IMG/VR virus record: IMGVR_UViG_3300031658_000106
Location: 1 to 25,242 of that record
DNA length: 25,242 nucleotides
Strand: one strand, 5' to 3'
From: a virus
Positions 5,800-11,478 of the stretch are shown one piece after another (the stretch's first letter is position 1; each line of letters starts with the position of its first letter). The position numbers and the translations under genes are program-made. Under the pieces are notes generated by a model. The model did not search any database. It saw only the letters and a program-made list of their open reading frames with translations, and was not told the origin of the DNA.

Positions 5800-5825
5800 T
5801 TTCTTTATCTTATGTAACCATTATA
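5800..5825. repeat. 26-bp direct repeat, copy 1 (leader plus -10)
   Basis: Identical to 6815-6840. It covers the -10 box and the first transcribed bases upstream of two unrelated genes. The similarity continues, with small changes, through the spacer and -35 box. Confidence 0.9.
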
Positions 5826-5848
5826 CCCTGTTATCACAACAAAGTCAA
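5820..5848 (-). promoter_or_regulatory. Consensus sigma-70 promoter (unit 1)
   Basis: TTGACT (5848-5843), a 17-bp spacer and TATAAT (5825-5820), followed by GGTTACATAAGATAAAGAAA. The same -10 plus leader sequence recurs at 6815-6840. A palindrome (5847-5867) touches the -35 box. Confidence 0.85.
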
Positions 5849-6546: not shown

Positions 6547-6575
6547 ATTATACCATCGTTTTCATAACAAGTCAA
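6547..6575 (-). promoter_or_regulatory. Consensus sigma-70 promoter (unit 2)
   Basis: TTGACT (6575-6570), a 17-bp spacer and TATAAT (6552-6547) on the minus strand. The predicted start is near 6540, about 24 nt before the 92-aa gene. Confidence 0.85.
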
Positions 6576-6814: not shown

Positions 6815-6840
6815 TTTCTTTATCTTATGTAACCATTATA
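6815..6840. repeat. 26-bp direct repeat, copy 2 (leader plus -10)
   Basis: Identical to 5800-5825, about 1 kb away. It places the same -10 and early leader sequence in front of the 63-aa gene. Confidence 0.9.
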
Positions 6841-6863
6841 CATGTTATTACAACAAAAGTCAA
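6835..6863 (-). promoter_or_regulatory. Consensus sigma-70 promoter (unit 3)
   Basis: TTGACT (6863-6858), a 17-bp spacer and TATAAT (6840-6835). It lies directly after the terminator at 6873-6913, so the 63-aa gene is insulated from the operon upstream. Confidence 0.85.
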
Positions 6864-6872
6864 GTGTTTTAT

Positions 6873-6913
6873 AAAAAAAAGACAAAAAAAAGTCCTTGTG
6901 AAAACAAAGACTT
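6873..6913 (-). terminator. Rho-independent terminator
   Basis: Minus-strand stem AAGTCTTTGT/ACAAGGACTT (10 pairs with one G-U) around a TTTC loop, followed by a run of T residues interrupted by GTC. It lies 30 bases after the stop of the 33-aa ORF and ends the DUF1127 micro-operon. Confidence 0.85.
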
Positions 6914-6942: not shown

Positions 6943-7044
6943 TTACAAACCTTCAAGTGTTAAAAATCCTGCAAACGAGCGACATTTTGCTTGTTGCGAT
7001 TTTCTCCACCGATTTAATCCTTCCATTAGAAATGCATCTTTCAT
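6943..7044 (-). CDS. 33-aa micropeptide coupled to the DUF1127 gene
   Basis: The ORF starts at an ATG sharing one base with the DUF1127 stop (TAATG), with GGAG 10 bases upstream. It encodes MKDAFLMEGLNRWRKSQQAK and then a 13-residue end, CRSFAGFLTLEGL. It is a short basic amphipathic helix-like peptide. It is the last gene before the terminator, and its frame fits the operon's overlap pattern, so I judge it probably translated. No family is recognisable. Confidence 0.5.
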   Translation of the reverse strand: MKDAFLMEGLNRWRKSQQAKCRSFAGFLTLEGL

Positions 7045-7256
7045 TATAAGTCTACTCCTCTACTTGGGATACTTTTTCCTCTCGCAATATTTTCAATATC
7101 ACCACGGGTGACACCAATGTCTTGCAAGTCTCTATCTGTTAATTTGCTTAATTCACCATACACTTTAGCGTTGTATGGATTTTTTGATGTGACGGCTTTG
7201 AACAAATCATATAAGGTTGTACAAATCGCACAATAAGTTGAGGTCAAACTATTCAT
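7044..7256 (-). CDS. DUF1127 (YjiS-like) small protein
   Basis: A 70-aa protein whose residues about 34-60 match the DUF1127 signature: GELSKLTDRDLQDIGVTRGD, followed by IENIARGKS. DUF1127 proteins are small Arg-rich proteins common in proteobacteria, especially alphaproteobacteria. Some have been linked to RNA turnover and phosphate or stress adaptation, but their mechanism is not settled. The N-terminal half here (about 1-33) has two cysteines and resembles no family. It overlaps the upstream 66-aa gene by ATGA. Capture from a host genome is the simplest origin, and the function in the phage could be to mimic or divert a host regulator. Confidence 0.85.
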   Translation of the reverse strand: MNSLTSTYCAICTTLYDLFKAVTSKNPYNAKVYGELSKLTDRDLQDIGVTRGDIENIARGKSIPSRGVDL

Positions 7257-7453
7257 AGCTCTTTCTCCGTCATTAGTTTCTTCGCTTCTTCGTGATAGCC
7301 CATATTGACTAATTCACTTGCAGCTCTGGCTCTTCCAGATGATTCTGTTATTGAGATACTTAATTCAAGCATCTTTGTCATTGCTTTTTTCAATGACTTA
7401 CAAACCCCACACGCAAGTTGTGTGTTATGGCTCATAATTAGGCCTAGCGACAT
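7253..7453 (-). CDS. Small helical protein, 66 aa
   Basis: Start ATG at 7453 shares one base with the upstream stop. AAGGAG lies 8 bases before it. The C-terminal half, SSGRARAASELVNMGYHEEA followed by KKLMTEKE, is a helical Arg/Ala pattern reminiscent of small alphaproteobacterial proteins often seen with DUF1127-type peptides. I cannot name a family. Two cysteines (CGVC) near residue 15-18 form a CxxC that could bind metal. It is coupled to the DUF1127 gene downstream. Confidence 0.6.
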   Translation of the reverse strand: MSLGLIMSHNTQLACGVCKSLKKAMTKMLELSISITESSGRARAASELVNMGYHEEAKKLMTEKEL

Positions 7454-7623
7454 TATTGAGTTCTCCTTTTAGTTAACATCGTATTATAAAAAGCAAGTAC
7501 ATCTTCGTCATGTAAATGCTGTACTTCTTTACCATATTCCATTCTAATGAATCTAACGACATCCATCTTATGTTTTGGTATCGGATTTGGCTTAAACAAA
7601 TCCAGTATGCTCCATCCTATCAT
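7453..7623 (-). CDS. Small hypothetical protein, 56 aa
   Basis: I choose ATG 7623 (protein MIGWSILDLFKPNPIPKHKM, then a basic/acidic helix ending LTKRRTQ) over a TTG further upstream, because AGAAGAG precedes it and the TTG has no ribosome site. A 6-bp hairpin (7648-7664) lies upstream and would be in the leader. It is the first full-size gene of the micro-operon ending with DUF1127. The function is unknown. Confidence 0.55.
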   Translation of the reverse strand: MIGWSILDLFKPNPIPKHKMDVVRFIRMEYGKEVQHLHDEDVLAFYNTMLTKRRTQ

Positions 7624-7647: not shown

Positions 7648-7664
7648 GGGATGCAATACATCCC
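7648..7664 (-). promoter_or_regulatory. Leader hairpin before the 56-aa gene
   Basis: GGGATG and CATCCC pair perfectly around a 5-base loop. There is no T-run, so it is not a terminator. It sits between the 17-codon ORF and the next gene and may act on message stability or translation. Confidence 0.4.
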
Positions 7665-7718
7665 CTAATTAATATTATGCGATACGCACAGTATCACCTT
7701 GGCCTGATTATAGGTCAT
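7665..7718 (-). CDS. Putative 17-aa leader ORF
   Basis: ATG at 7718 is preceded by a strong AAGGAG seven bases upstream, and encodes MTYNQAKVILCVSHNIN before TAG. It is the first ORF after a TATAAATA box, and a hairpin follows directly. The good ribosome site argues for translation, but length alone makes it uncertain. It could be a leader peptide or a remnant gene. Confidence 0.35.
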   Translation of the reverse strand: MTYNQAKVILCVSHNIN

Positions 7719-7749: not shown

Positions 7750-7757
7750 TATTTATA
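7750..7757 (-). promoter_or_regulatory. T4-type late promoter TATAAATA
   Basis: An exact TATAAATA box in the 171-bp gap between 7638 and 7809, with the predicted start near 7744. Nothing else but the 17-codon ORF and a hairpin is visible in this gap. It would drive the DUF1127 micro-operon late in infection. Confidence 0.6.
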
Positions 7758-8429: not shown

Positions 8430-9635
8430 TTATGCAGCGTAGACATCATCCCACTTGCCTGTTAATCCAGCAACCTCATATTCAGTCACTTTATTCTCAA
8501 AGAAGTTGGTATGGTCTGCGCCATTCAGCACCCACTCCAACCACGGCAGAGGATTTTCTTTTACTTTGTAGTTTCCTTTGAGTCCAAGTTGAAGAAGCCT
8601 TCTGTCAGTAATGTATCTAACATACTGTTTGACTTCCTTTTCACCTAGTCCCTCAATGTCACCAAGCTTGTACGCCAAGTCAATAAACCTGTCTTCCAAC
8701 TTAACAGCGTTCCTTGCCATCTCATATATATGTCCCTTGAATTCATCGTCTACGATACGGGGGTGTTCTGCACAATATGCCTTGAATAGTTTTGCATTAC
8801 CTTCAACATGGATAGATTCATCACGAATACTCCACTCAACAACCTTACCCATACCTTTCATCTTACCATAACGCTGAAAGTTTAACAGCATTACGAATGA
8901 TGCGAACAAGGCGACACCTTCATTCATTACTGACTTTGCAAGACACAATCCAAGTCCACGAACTGTATTCGGGTCACTGTCCATCATAAATTCAATCTTG
9001 TCAGCCATCTCTGTGTATTCCAAGAAAGCATGATACTCTGCGTCTGACAATCCAAGTGTTTCATTAAGTAGTGCATATGCACGTTGATGAATACCTTCCC
9101 TAGTTGCAAAAGAACCAAGCATGTTCCGTACTTCGTTGTTCTTAAACTTAGGAATAAATTGGTCGTAGTAGTTCTGTCCTACTGCAACATCTGACTGTGT
9201 GAATAGTCTAAGGATGTTTGTGACGTATTCCTTCTCGACTGCATTAACCTTACCAGATTTCCAATCAGCAACATCTTCAGACAAGTCAAGTTCATCTTCA
9301 ATCCAATGGACTTTCTCATGTCTTGTTGTGATTTCAACTGCCCAAGGGTAGTGAAATGGTTTGTAAGCTTCTGAGAACTCCAACAACCCTCCACCTTGCT
9401 TTTTCACAAAAGTATCTGCAACTGCAATAAACTGGTCGTATGAACCAACCAACTTATCATCAATAAAGATTTGTGGTACTGATCGAGCAGTGGGGTTTAT
9501 TTTTTGATAAAATGCAAGACGTTCTTCTTCGTTGTCCATCTTAATCTCTGTGTACTCATACCCATGCGAGTCGAACCAATGTTTCGCCTTCTCACAGAAT
9601 GGACAATGTGACTTACTGTATATTTCTACTTTCAT
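8430..9635 (-). CDS. nrdB: Ribonucleotide reductase beta fused to N-terminal glutaredoxin
   Basis: A 401-aa fusion protein. Residues 1-80 are a glutaredoxin: active site CPFC at 11-14, and RSVPQIF near 51-57 as the cis-proline loop. Residues 85-401 are a class I R2 subunit with all diiron ligands visible: Asp117 (WIEDELDLS), Glu180 and His183 (REGIHQRAY), Glu239 (NEGVALF), and Glu273 and His276 (IRDESIH). The radical tyrosine is Tyr187. R2 supplies the radical to NrdA for making deoxyribonucleotides, and the fused glutaredoxin would re-reduce NrdA's cysteines without a separate partner. I place the start at MKVEIYSK (9635), where AAAGGAAAAAAGAA precedes ATG. The open frame further upstream overlaps nrdA and is not needed. 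Confidence 0.95.
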   Translation of the reverse strand: MKVEIYSKSHCPFCEKAKHWFDSHGYEYTEIKMDNEEERLAFYQKINPTARSVPQIFIDDKLVGSYDQFIAVADTFVKKQGGGLLEFSEAYKPFHYPWAVEITTRHEKVHWIEDELDLSEDVADWKSGKVNAVEKEYVTNILRLFTQSDVAVGQNYYDQFIPKFKNNEVRNMLGSFATREGIHQRAYALLNETLGLSDAEYHAFLEYTEMADKIEFMMDSDPNTVRGLGLCLAKSVMNEGVALFASFVMLLNFQRYGKMKGMGKVVEWSIRDESIHVEGNAKLFKAYCAEHPRIVDDEFKGHIYEMARNAVKLEDRFIDLAYKLGDIEGLGEKEVKQYVRYITDRRLLQLGLKGNYKVKENPLPWLEWVLNGADHTNFFENKVTEYEVAGLTGKWDDVYAA

Positions 9636-9654
9636 TTCTTTTTTCCTTTTTTGA

Positions 9655-11478
9655 TCAGCCCTGGCAGGCTGTACACTCGTCTTGTGATTCCATTGTTTGT
9701 GTTTCAAAATCTTGTAATGCATCACGCGAAACTTTCATTGATACATTTTCTGCCTTTTGTGAACTTTCTGTTCTTAGGTAGTACAGACCCTTAGTTCCTA
9801 ACTTCCATGCAGCAAAGTGACTTCTATGTAAGTCTTTCTTGTCTGCGCCTGATGGGAAGAATAGGTTTAATGATTGTCCTTGACAAAGATACTCTTGTCT
9901 ATCTGCGGCCTGTTCCACTAACACCATCTGATCAATCTCAATTGCTGTTTTGAAAACATCTTTAACCTTTTGTGACAAAAACTCAAGATGTTGGACTGAA
10001 CCACCATGAGTAATAATATCTGACCAAACTTCGTCTTGGTTCCTACCAATCCTTCTTAGTTCTTGTTCTAAGTACTTGTTCTGCACTAAGTGAGAACCAG
10101 CGCGTGTACGATGCGTATATGCATTCGCCTTTGATGGTTCAATAGATGGAGAAGTTCCTACAATGATACTAGAGTTTGCATTAGGAGCAATCGCAAGTAG
10201 ATGTGCATTACGTCTACCAGTACCTCTCATATCAGGAGCCTCACCCTTCTCTGAACCTATGTTAACAGTTTCCTTGACTGCGCTGTCTTTGATATACTGG
10301 AACACCTCACGATTCAGTTCTCTTGCTTCTAGTGAATCAAAAGGAACTCTCTTCTTATGTAAGAGTGAATGCCAACCCATTGCACCTAGTCCAAGACTAC
10401 GTTCTTGAGTTGCAGAATATCTTGCACGACTAATCTCATCACCAGCATTGTCAATAAAGAATTGCAATACATTGTCTAAGAATCGAATGAGGTCTGCAAC
10501 AAGATTTGAATCTTTCCACTCATCATATTTCTCTAAGTTAAGAGAAGATAAACAACACACGGCAGTCCTGTCTTCTGATGTAGGAAGATGTATTTCATTG
10601 CACAAGTTAGAACCATGAATCTTCAATCCCTTGGCTCTCATCGTATGCGGTAACGCACGATTAGCTGTATCAATGAAGTTAAGGTATGGTTCACCTGTAC
10701 GATAACGCACTTCCAAAATCTGTTGCCACAAACTTCTGGCAGGCATACTTTCACGAACAGTATCTTCATGTGGGTCTTTAAAGTCCCATATCTCATTTCG
10801 TTCTACTGCTCGCATGAAGTTATCTGTGATATTGATTGCATGGTGCAAATTTAAGTTCTTACGATTGACATCACCTGTAGGTACTCGCATGTTAAGGAAC
10901 TCTATCAGGTCGGGGTGTGAGACATCCATATACGCCGCGTAAGAACCTTTACGAGTTCTACCCTGTCGATATGCCGTCATATCTGCGTCTACAGTATGTA
11001 AAAACGGCATTGGGCCGGGGGCCTTGTCAGAGATGGCACGAATGTCACTCCAATGTCCACCAACACCACCACCCTTAACAGACAACCATCGTAACTCTGC
11101 TGAGTGGTCGATTAGTCCTTCAAGTGAATCAGGTACATAAGTTAAGAAACATGAGATTGGTAACGCCTTTGCTTTAGTGCCAGGCATAGGAGCGTTTGAT
11201 AATACTGGGGATGCAAACATGAAGTGACCTTTAGACACTGCATCATAGATACGTTGTGCAAGGTCTAAGTCGCCATTACAATATGCAACTGACGCCCGTG
11301 CATATGCTTGTTGGGGTGATGCTTCTTGTTCTGTACAATAATAATCTTTTAGAAGTTTATACGCTTGTTCACTTAAATCCTTATCTCTTGTTTTATCTAT
11401 TCTTATACCAAGGTGGTCATGACCATTGTCTACCTCAGTCTTTGGGAAGGGTAGTATAACTTCTGCAAGACTTTTCAT
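9655..11478 (-). CDS. nrdA: Ribonucleotide reductase alpha, no ATP cone
   Basis: A 607-aa class I catalytic subunit that reduces ribonucleotides. Redox cysteines are Cys110 (LPISCFLTY) and Cys308/309 (VCCLSSLN). The radical site is N291-L-C293-N-E295 (SNLCNEI). Tyr-Tyr of the radical path appears in GLYYLRT, and the C-terminal shuttle pair is CTAC (602-605). E. coli NrdA has about 760 residues. Here the N-terminal ATP-cone is missing and the protein begins close to the catalytic barrel. Loss of that domain normally removes inhibition by dATP, which suits a virus that floods the cell with dNTPs. GGAG lies about 10 bases upstream of ATG, and nrdB follows after 19 bp. Confidence 0.96.
   Translation of the reverse strand: MKSLAEVILPFPKTEVDNGHDHLGIRIDKTRDKDLSEQAYKLLKDYYCTEQEASPQQAYARASVAYCNGDLDLAQRIYDAVSKGHFMFASPVLSNAPMPGTKAKALPISCFLTYVPDSLEGLIDHSAELRWLSVKGGGVGGHWSDIRAISDKAPGPMPFLHTVDADMTAYRQGRTRKGSYAAYMDVSHPDLIEFLNMRVPTGDVNRKNLNLHHAINITDNFMRAVERNEIWDFKDPHEDTVRESMPARSLWQQILEVRYRTGEPYLNFIDTANRALPHTMRAKGLKIHGSNLCNEIHLPTSEDRTAVCCLSSLNLEKYDEWKDSNLVADLIRFLDNVLQFFIDNAGDEISRARYSATQERSLGLGAMGWHSLLHKKRVPFDSLEARELNREVFQYIKDSAVKETVNIGSEKGEAPDMRGTGRRNAHLLAIAPNANSSIIVGTSPSIEPSKANAYTHRTRAGSHLVQNKYLEQELRRIGRNQDEVWSDIITHGGSVQHLEFLSQKVKDVFKTAIEIDQMVLVEQAADRQEYLCQGQSLNLFFPSGADKKDLHRSHFAAWKLGTKGLYYLRTESSQKAENVSMKVSRDALQDFETQTMESQDECTACQG

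Follow-up and report, generated by a model that had tools for sequence, protein, structure and literature searches.

A recurring small-protein gene pair in ocean virus fragments points to a virus-built control module around DUF1127

Introduction

Why should a marine phage carry a gene for a DUF1127 protein, and why does that gene overlap others as small as itself? Proteobacteria commonly encode DUF1127 proteins, and what these do biochemically is contested, with RNA binding and the binding of sensor kinases as the two proposals. That a phage can encode one is already known from GenBank, where gene 46 of Methylophilales phage Melnitz (MZ577097) is annotated as DUF1127; the main text of the Melnitz paper makes no mention of DUF1127 (PMC9004378). 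We analyzed a complete virus record of 25,242 bases (the window), in which a first-pass annotation had described a DUF1127 micro-operon captured by a phage. The window comes from a marine T4-like virus of bacteria and is a relative of the methylophage Melnitz, and its ribonucleotide reductase region is 79% identical to that of Melnitz at the DNA level. Positions 8430-9725 appear, from the sequence alone, to encode a ribonucleotide reductase small subunit with an N-terminal glutaredoxin-like fusion (CPFC motif).

Results

The cassette lies on the minus strand and consists of four ORFs of 56, 66, 70 and 33 aa with successive overlaps of 1, 4 and 1 bases (Table 1), and the first-pass annotation had placed this chain of tiny genes correctly. 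Although a plausible ribosome-binding site accompanies the 33-aa ORF, neither Melnitz nor any other three-gene relative examined has a counterpart; in these the terminator directly follows DUF1127. The ORF was seen solely in the near-identical contigs L003-L005. Because the 33-aa ORF has no counterpart in relatives, the conserved unit comprises three genes, not four. The 56-, 66- and 70-aa proteins have their collinear orthologues in Melnitz genes 44, 45 and 46 (55, 41 and 48% identity), and pairwise dN/dS values for the three genes were mostly 0.1-0.4 (0.10-0.36 for the 56-aa gene), with 0.57 for one close pair with few changes. Purifying selection acts on all three conserved genes, and the collinear orthologues together with the dN/dS values show that the cassette is no product of chance. 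Among the partners proposed as functional companions of DUF1127, the 56- and 66-aa proteins are genuine conserved ones, whereas the fourth gene is not conserved. The Melnitz cassette shares the late promoter, the terminator and the following early-type promoter; it differs from the window in having no 33-aa ORF and a leader without the GGGATGC hairpin.

Table 1. Positions in the window of the cassette genes and of the putative signals around them.
Feature	Position	Strand	Remarks
T4-type late promoter element TATAAATA	7750..7757	-	conserved upstream in relatives
Tiny leader ORF, 17 aa, MTYNQAKVILCVSHNIN	7665..7718	-	putative; after C-run and Shine-Dalgarno AAGGAG
Leader hairpin GGGATG(C/T)-loop-GCATCCC	7648..7664	-	start codon of the 56-aa gene some 25 nt downstream
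56-aa protein	7453..7623	-	Melnitz gene 44 orthologue
66-aa phage-specific partner	7253..7453	-	CGVC, then ESSGRARAASELVNMGYHEEAKKLM; Melnitz gene 45 orthologue
70-aa DUF1127 protein	7044..7256	-	N-terminal CAIC; Melnitz gene 46 orthologue
33-aa ORF, doubtful gene	6943..7044	-	1-base overlap with the DUF1127 stop; unconserved
Intrinsic terminator closing the operon	6890..6913	-	
Early-type promoter TTGACT-N17-TATAAT of the next operon	6835..6863	-	

The 70-aa protein scored 32.1 bits against the Pfam profile of DUF1127 (PF06568; cut-off 23.3, E 9.6e-8), which bears out its earlier description as a clear DUF1127 protein, and the match spanned profile positions 17-37 of 37. Its core, DIGVTRGDI, corresponds to the conserved DIG(L/I/V) and the following R.(D/E)I, and L44, D46, G48 and R51 were invariant in 21 phage DUF1127 members. 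With the small PF06568 proteins YjiS, Agrobacterium SDPs and Rhodobacter CcaF1 the window protein shares its size and a C-terminal L..LTDR(E/D)L.DIG(I/V).RGDI above the Pfam cut-off, the domain common to phage and host DUF1127 being merely about 20-37 residues long. It differs from them in being phage-encoded, in its N-terminal CxxC helix and low arginine content, and in lying under a late phage promoter in an operon with the phage-specific 66-aa partner and the 56-aa protein. Arginine made up 5.7% of the window protein, against means of 8.5% in 48 phage sequences and 13.5% in 14 cellular proteins. Since the CcaF1-type RNA-binding subgroup is marked by a high arginine content of about 14% (PMC12501420), we kept the window protein out of that subgroup; the arginine hallmark that the literature ties to RNA binding is weak in it. 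AlphaFold modelled an N-terminal helix and three short helices with a weak pLDDT of 69. No fold match with a Z of 2 or more was found when the model was compared with 35 chains of solved structures, and sequence matches in the PDB were insignificant. Kinship with SAM domains (SAM_1, 14.8 bits; CNKSR2 SAM chains, E 0.04-0.3) was unsupported, as no fold match appeared among those 35 chains.

None of the 56-, 66- and 33-aa proteins matched a family above threshold in Pfam, PHROG, NCBIfam or PADLOC, where sub-threshold noise alone was seen. The 56-aa protein, for which Pfam, NCBIfam and PADLOC gave no match, had 53 matching loci in a search of viral contigs. The PADLOC anti-phage defence models had zero matches among all four proteins, and a defence or anti-defence identity was rejected on that ground. 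The same kind of search with the 66-aa family recovered 177 relatives, and a broader profile at least 484; 80 of the 177 and 80 of the 484 were retrieved for study. Most members carry an N-terminal CxxC and a near-invariant C-terminal motif, E..GRARAA.EL...GYHEEAK.LM, and the window protein, adjacent to DUF1127, has the CxxC followed by GRARAASEL..MGYHEEAKxLM. A match to CCP_MauG in Pfam (19.6 bits, under the cut-off) was taken as spurious and due to the CxxC. In the AlphaFold model of the 66-aa protein (pLDDT 77) a long helix spans residues 3-50 and a short one residues 54-65. The maximum 19-residue hydropathy was about 1.6 or higher in roughly 15 of 42 clusters, which suggests a membrane-seeking helix in those clusters; the window member, at 0.81, is weakly hydrophobic. 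Tiny single-span-like proteins of 20-45 aa adjoin the pair after the 66-aa gene in L082, L090 and L099 and after the DUF1127 stop in L067.

The first-pass annotation had credited one partner with a CxxC. This holds for the 66-aa protein, but the feature is not confined to one protein, for the 70-aa protein has a CxxC too. Among 23 non-redundant pairs, the CxxC was present in both proteins in 8, in the 66-aa protein alone in 8, in neither in 7 and in DUF1127 alone in none; the co-occurrence was borderline (Fisher p 0.052), and the clusters are not independent. As to a possible common origin of the two proteins, their N-termini resembled each other with a permutation p of 0.015, yet a register shift of +3 scored equally well, and a profile comparison by hhalign gave a probability of 11%. 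No fusion of the 66-aa protein with DUF1127 was found among the ORFs of the loci.

We then considered the 66-aa gene and its neighbours across viral loci, which were retrieved through the 66-aa protein (some through the 56-aa protein) and not through DUF1127. After clustering at 80%, with 500 nt available on each side, 51 non-redundant loci remained, and in 47 of these a DUF1127 gene, a DUF3563-like gene or both lay within 300 nt of the 66-aa gene. DUF1127 was the partner in 34 loci, a DUF3563-like protein in 12, both in one and neither in 4. Both gene orders occur, with the 66-aa gene before or after DUF1127, and most neighbours overlap. The DUF3563 identity passes the Pfam cut-off in L020 and L088 and was sub-threshold in three other tested loci. 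DUF3563 (PF12086) fills the slot beside the 66-aa protein in other phages as DUF1127 does in the window, although its sequence is unrelated to DUF1127 and it is absent from the window cassette. In some divergent loci a clamp loader and a DnaB-like helicase were among the neighbouring genes, which points to T4-like phages.

DUF1127 also occurs in phages outside this pairing. A stand-alone 55-aa DUF1127 lies downstream of a putative structural gene, with no 66-aa partner, in another marine phage group (L006-L017), which suggests that phages acquired DUF1127 more than once. In Roseobacter phage SIO1 (AF189021) a DUF1127-like stretch (L192:2501-2590) falls in an unannotated gap just ahead of the ribonucleotide reductase gene and near a phoH-like feature, with matches in five Siovirus records.

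The 66-aa protein itself was nearly confined to phages. A strict peptide pattern run against 84,980 species genomes found one relative, on a contig with T4-like replication genes. Profile searches of 289, 398 and 295 genomes (overlapping samples, roughly 900 Pseudomonadota genomes, taken without selection for the presumed hosts OM43 and SAR11) gave convincing matches only in the Rhodobacteraceae bin to which that contig belongs and a weak one (E 0.003) in one further genome. Of the four copies in that bin, three adjoin DUF1127 on contigs with phage-like genes. The fourth (L147:1851-2015) is an orphan 66-aa motif amid ordinary bacterial transporter genes and is possibly domesticated. DUF1127, on the other hand, was present in 51 of 142 genomes of the class sample, and the DUF1127-bearing bacterial loci examined lacked the pair, save in the one bin with phage contigs. 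On these searches the 66-aa partner is essentially phage-only, and since DUF1127 is frequent in bacterial genomes we regard DUF1127 (or DUF3563) as the host-type part of the pair and the 66-aa protein as the viral one. The idea of a captured micro-operon is not supported in that form, because the DUF1127 domain alone is host-like, its 66-aa partner is not of host type and the fourth gene is unconserved.

Upstream of the cassette lies a T4-type late promoter element. Its counts within the window alone (2 against 1.74 expected, no excess over chance) were set aside as uninformative. Across relatives, 23 of 40 distinct loci in which the 56-aa gene comes first had TATAAATA no more than 250 nt upstream, against about 0.03 expected, as did 3 of 20 loci of the DUF1127-first group, so that the late promoter is clear in the 56-aa-first group only. 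In alignment A6 none of the 17 sequences lacks the aligned TAAATA core, over the length that each covers. Over the initial 50 kb of the Melnitz genome, four copies of the late motif were counted on the coding strand and none on the opposite one; of these four copies, three are intergenic, including one at the cassette. The conserved late-type promoter marks the cassette as a putative late-type transcription unit, and the late expression that had been proposed for it agrees with the promoter kept in relatives. At the other end, the early-type promoter that starts the next operon shows that the cassette forms a separate transcription unit. Near-consensus TTGACT-N17-TATAAT promoters precede small genes past the cassette at 6835-6863, 6547-6575 and 5820-5848, and the equivalent place in Melnitz has two similar early-type promoters (TATAGT and TATAAT).

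The leader between the late promoter and the 56-aa gene has a C-run and an AAGGAG, kept in 17 of 17 rows of A6, followed by a putative tiny ORF. In the window its product, MTYNQAKVILCVSHNIN, takes the same position as the MWPYTDEE microprotein of relatives and has a different sequence. Of 42 non-redundant loci, 15 encode a conserved MWPYT(D/E)EE peptide of 13-25 aa, which lies upstream in the 56-aa group (before the 56-aa genes of L020, L030, L047, L051, L075, L126, L132, L135, L139 and L140) and downstream of the pair elsewhere. In L084 it lies 484 nt after the 66-aa start and shares one base with the stop codon of DUF1127, and it was also seen in L067, L070 and L094. The hairpin that follows was paired in 119 of 119 cells in 17 sequences, compared with 40-59% when slid; its changes are all G-U wobbles, with no compensatory double change. 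A known RNA element in the leader was rejected, as Rfam returned nothing above threshold there and its one weak match (Phe_leader) falls at the terminator. The layout recalls the uORF attenuator of a DUF1127 gene in Sinorhizobium meliloti, in which a tiny, translated ORF, a C-rich element and a leader stem-loop likewise precede the DUF1127 gene (PMC12218461). In the phage leader the C-run precedes the Shine-Dalgarno sequence and the hairpin is strong; the resemblance is one of layout without homology.

Discussion

The reading that we prefer, with a probability of roughly 40%, is that the cassette encodes a late-expressed heteromeric small-protein adaptor, in which a phage 66-aa subunit and an exchangeable host-type domain act on a host target. 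We infer both the heteromeric pairing of the two proteins and their function. The overlapping genes would be translated in a coupled manner, so that the 66-aa and DUF1127 proteins would be made in a fixed ratio. The 66-aa protein would be the constant subunit of a heteromeric helical complex, and the DUF1127 or DUF3563-like protein the exchangeable head that contacts the host target; where both proteins bear an N-terminal CxxC, they may be joined through a shared metal site or a disulfide. The complex would probably sit at the inner membrane, as suggested by the hydrophobic central helix in many relatives and by the single-span tiny proteins in neighbouring slots of some, and late in infection it would bias a host regulator, for which the candidates are sensor kinases and the machinery of RNA decay and turnover. 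YjiS, a bacterial DUF1127 protein, associates with the inner membrane and has inner-membrane partners including SsrA/B (PMC11707872).

A broader proposal, which we advance more tentatively, is that a phage-specific adaptor family recruits the unrelated DUF1127 and DUF3563 interchangeably, in a microprotein operon with the MWPYTDEE peptide (13-25 aa) and a hairpin leader. In the open-access literature searched we found neither the exchange of DUF1127 and DUF3563 described, nor the conserved 66-aa partner found in these phages, nor the microprotein leader, which is weak evidence of novelty. The same literature contained no mention of DUF3563, and because of this the pairing described here is a first functional lead for that family.

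Among the alternatives, an effector of RNA turnover fares best, though we think it improbable. The DUF1127 protein would then act like Rhodobacter CcaF1, an RNA-binding DUF1127 protein that affects RNA stability (PMC10253847; discussed in PMC12501420), and would bind RNA and change how late RNA of the phage, or RNA of the host, is processed or degraded, with its partners as tethers. Late expression fits a control of late mRNA stability, and the operon's own leader has a conserved RNA hairpin. Against this stand the low arginine content of the window protein relative to its cellular counterparts and the observation of no RNA association for Salmonella YjiS (PMC11707872).

Rather less probable is a role of the cassette as a late accessory of the membrane or of lysis, in which its tiny membrane-associated proteins would serve lysis timing, superinfection exclusion or the virion and DUF1127 would be a structural helix only. 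The late promoter, the hydrophobic helix in many 66-aa relatives and the membrane-span-like neighbours would suit such a role; the window member, however, is weakly hydrophobic, PHROG gave no lysis or structural match above noise, and a conserved exchange of two host-type domains is atypical for lysis proteins.

About as doubtful is a phosphate or nutrient gene whose DUF1127 product would bind host PhoR and alter the Pho regulon. DUF1127 proteins from several bacteria do bind or act through the sensor kinase PhoR, but the Agrobacterium protein dampens phosphate uptake rather than raising it (PMC12501420), which ill suits a phage that wants phosphate. The DUF1127-like stretch of SIO1 near a phoH-like feature speaks for this role, whereas host transcription should count for little late in a T4-type infection and the DUF3563 swap would be left unexplained. 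Least probable is a loose cluster of tiny accessory genes under one late promoter with no common function: tiny genes of T4-like phages generally cluster and 4 of the 51 loci have no recognised partner, but in the other 47 the pairing is retained, whichever gene comes first and with either of two partners.

The recurrence of the pair in hundreds of ocean virus fragments and the replacement of DUF1127 by DUF3563 in some of them point to an undescribed control module built by viruses. Phages in which DUF1127 is time and again coupled to the same particular partner, and in which DUF3563 can take its place, provide a natural experiment on the disputed role of this domain, as the target that counts for DUF1127 should be the one bound by the phage module. 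If the interchangeable recruitment is true, DUF1127 and DUF3563 would have equivalent jobs in bacteria, and these phages would define a small-protein control system that is new to science.
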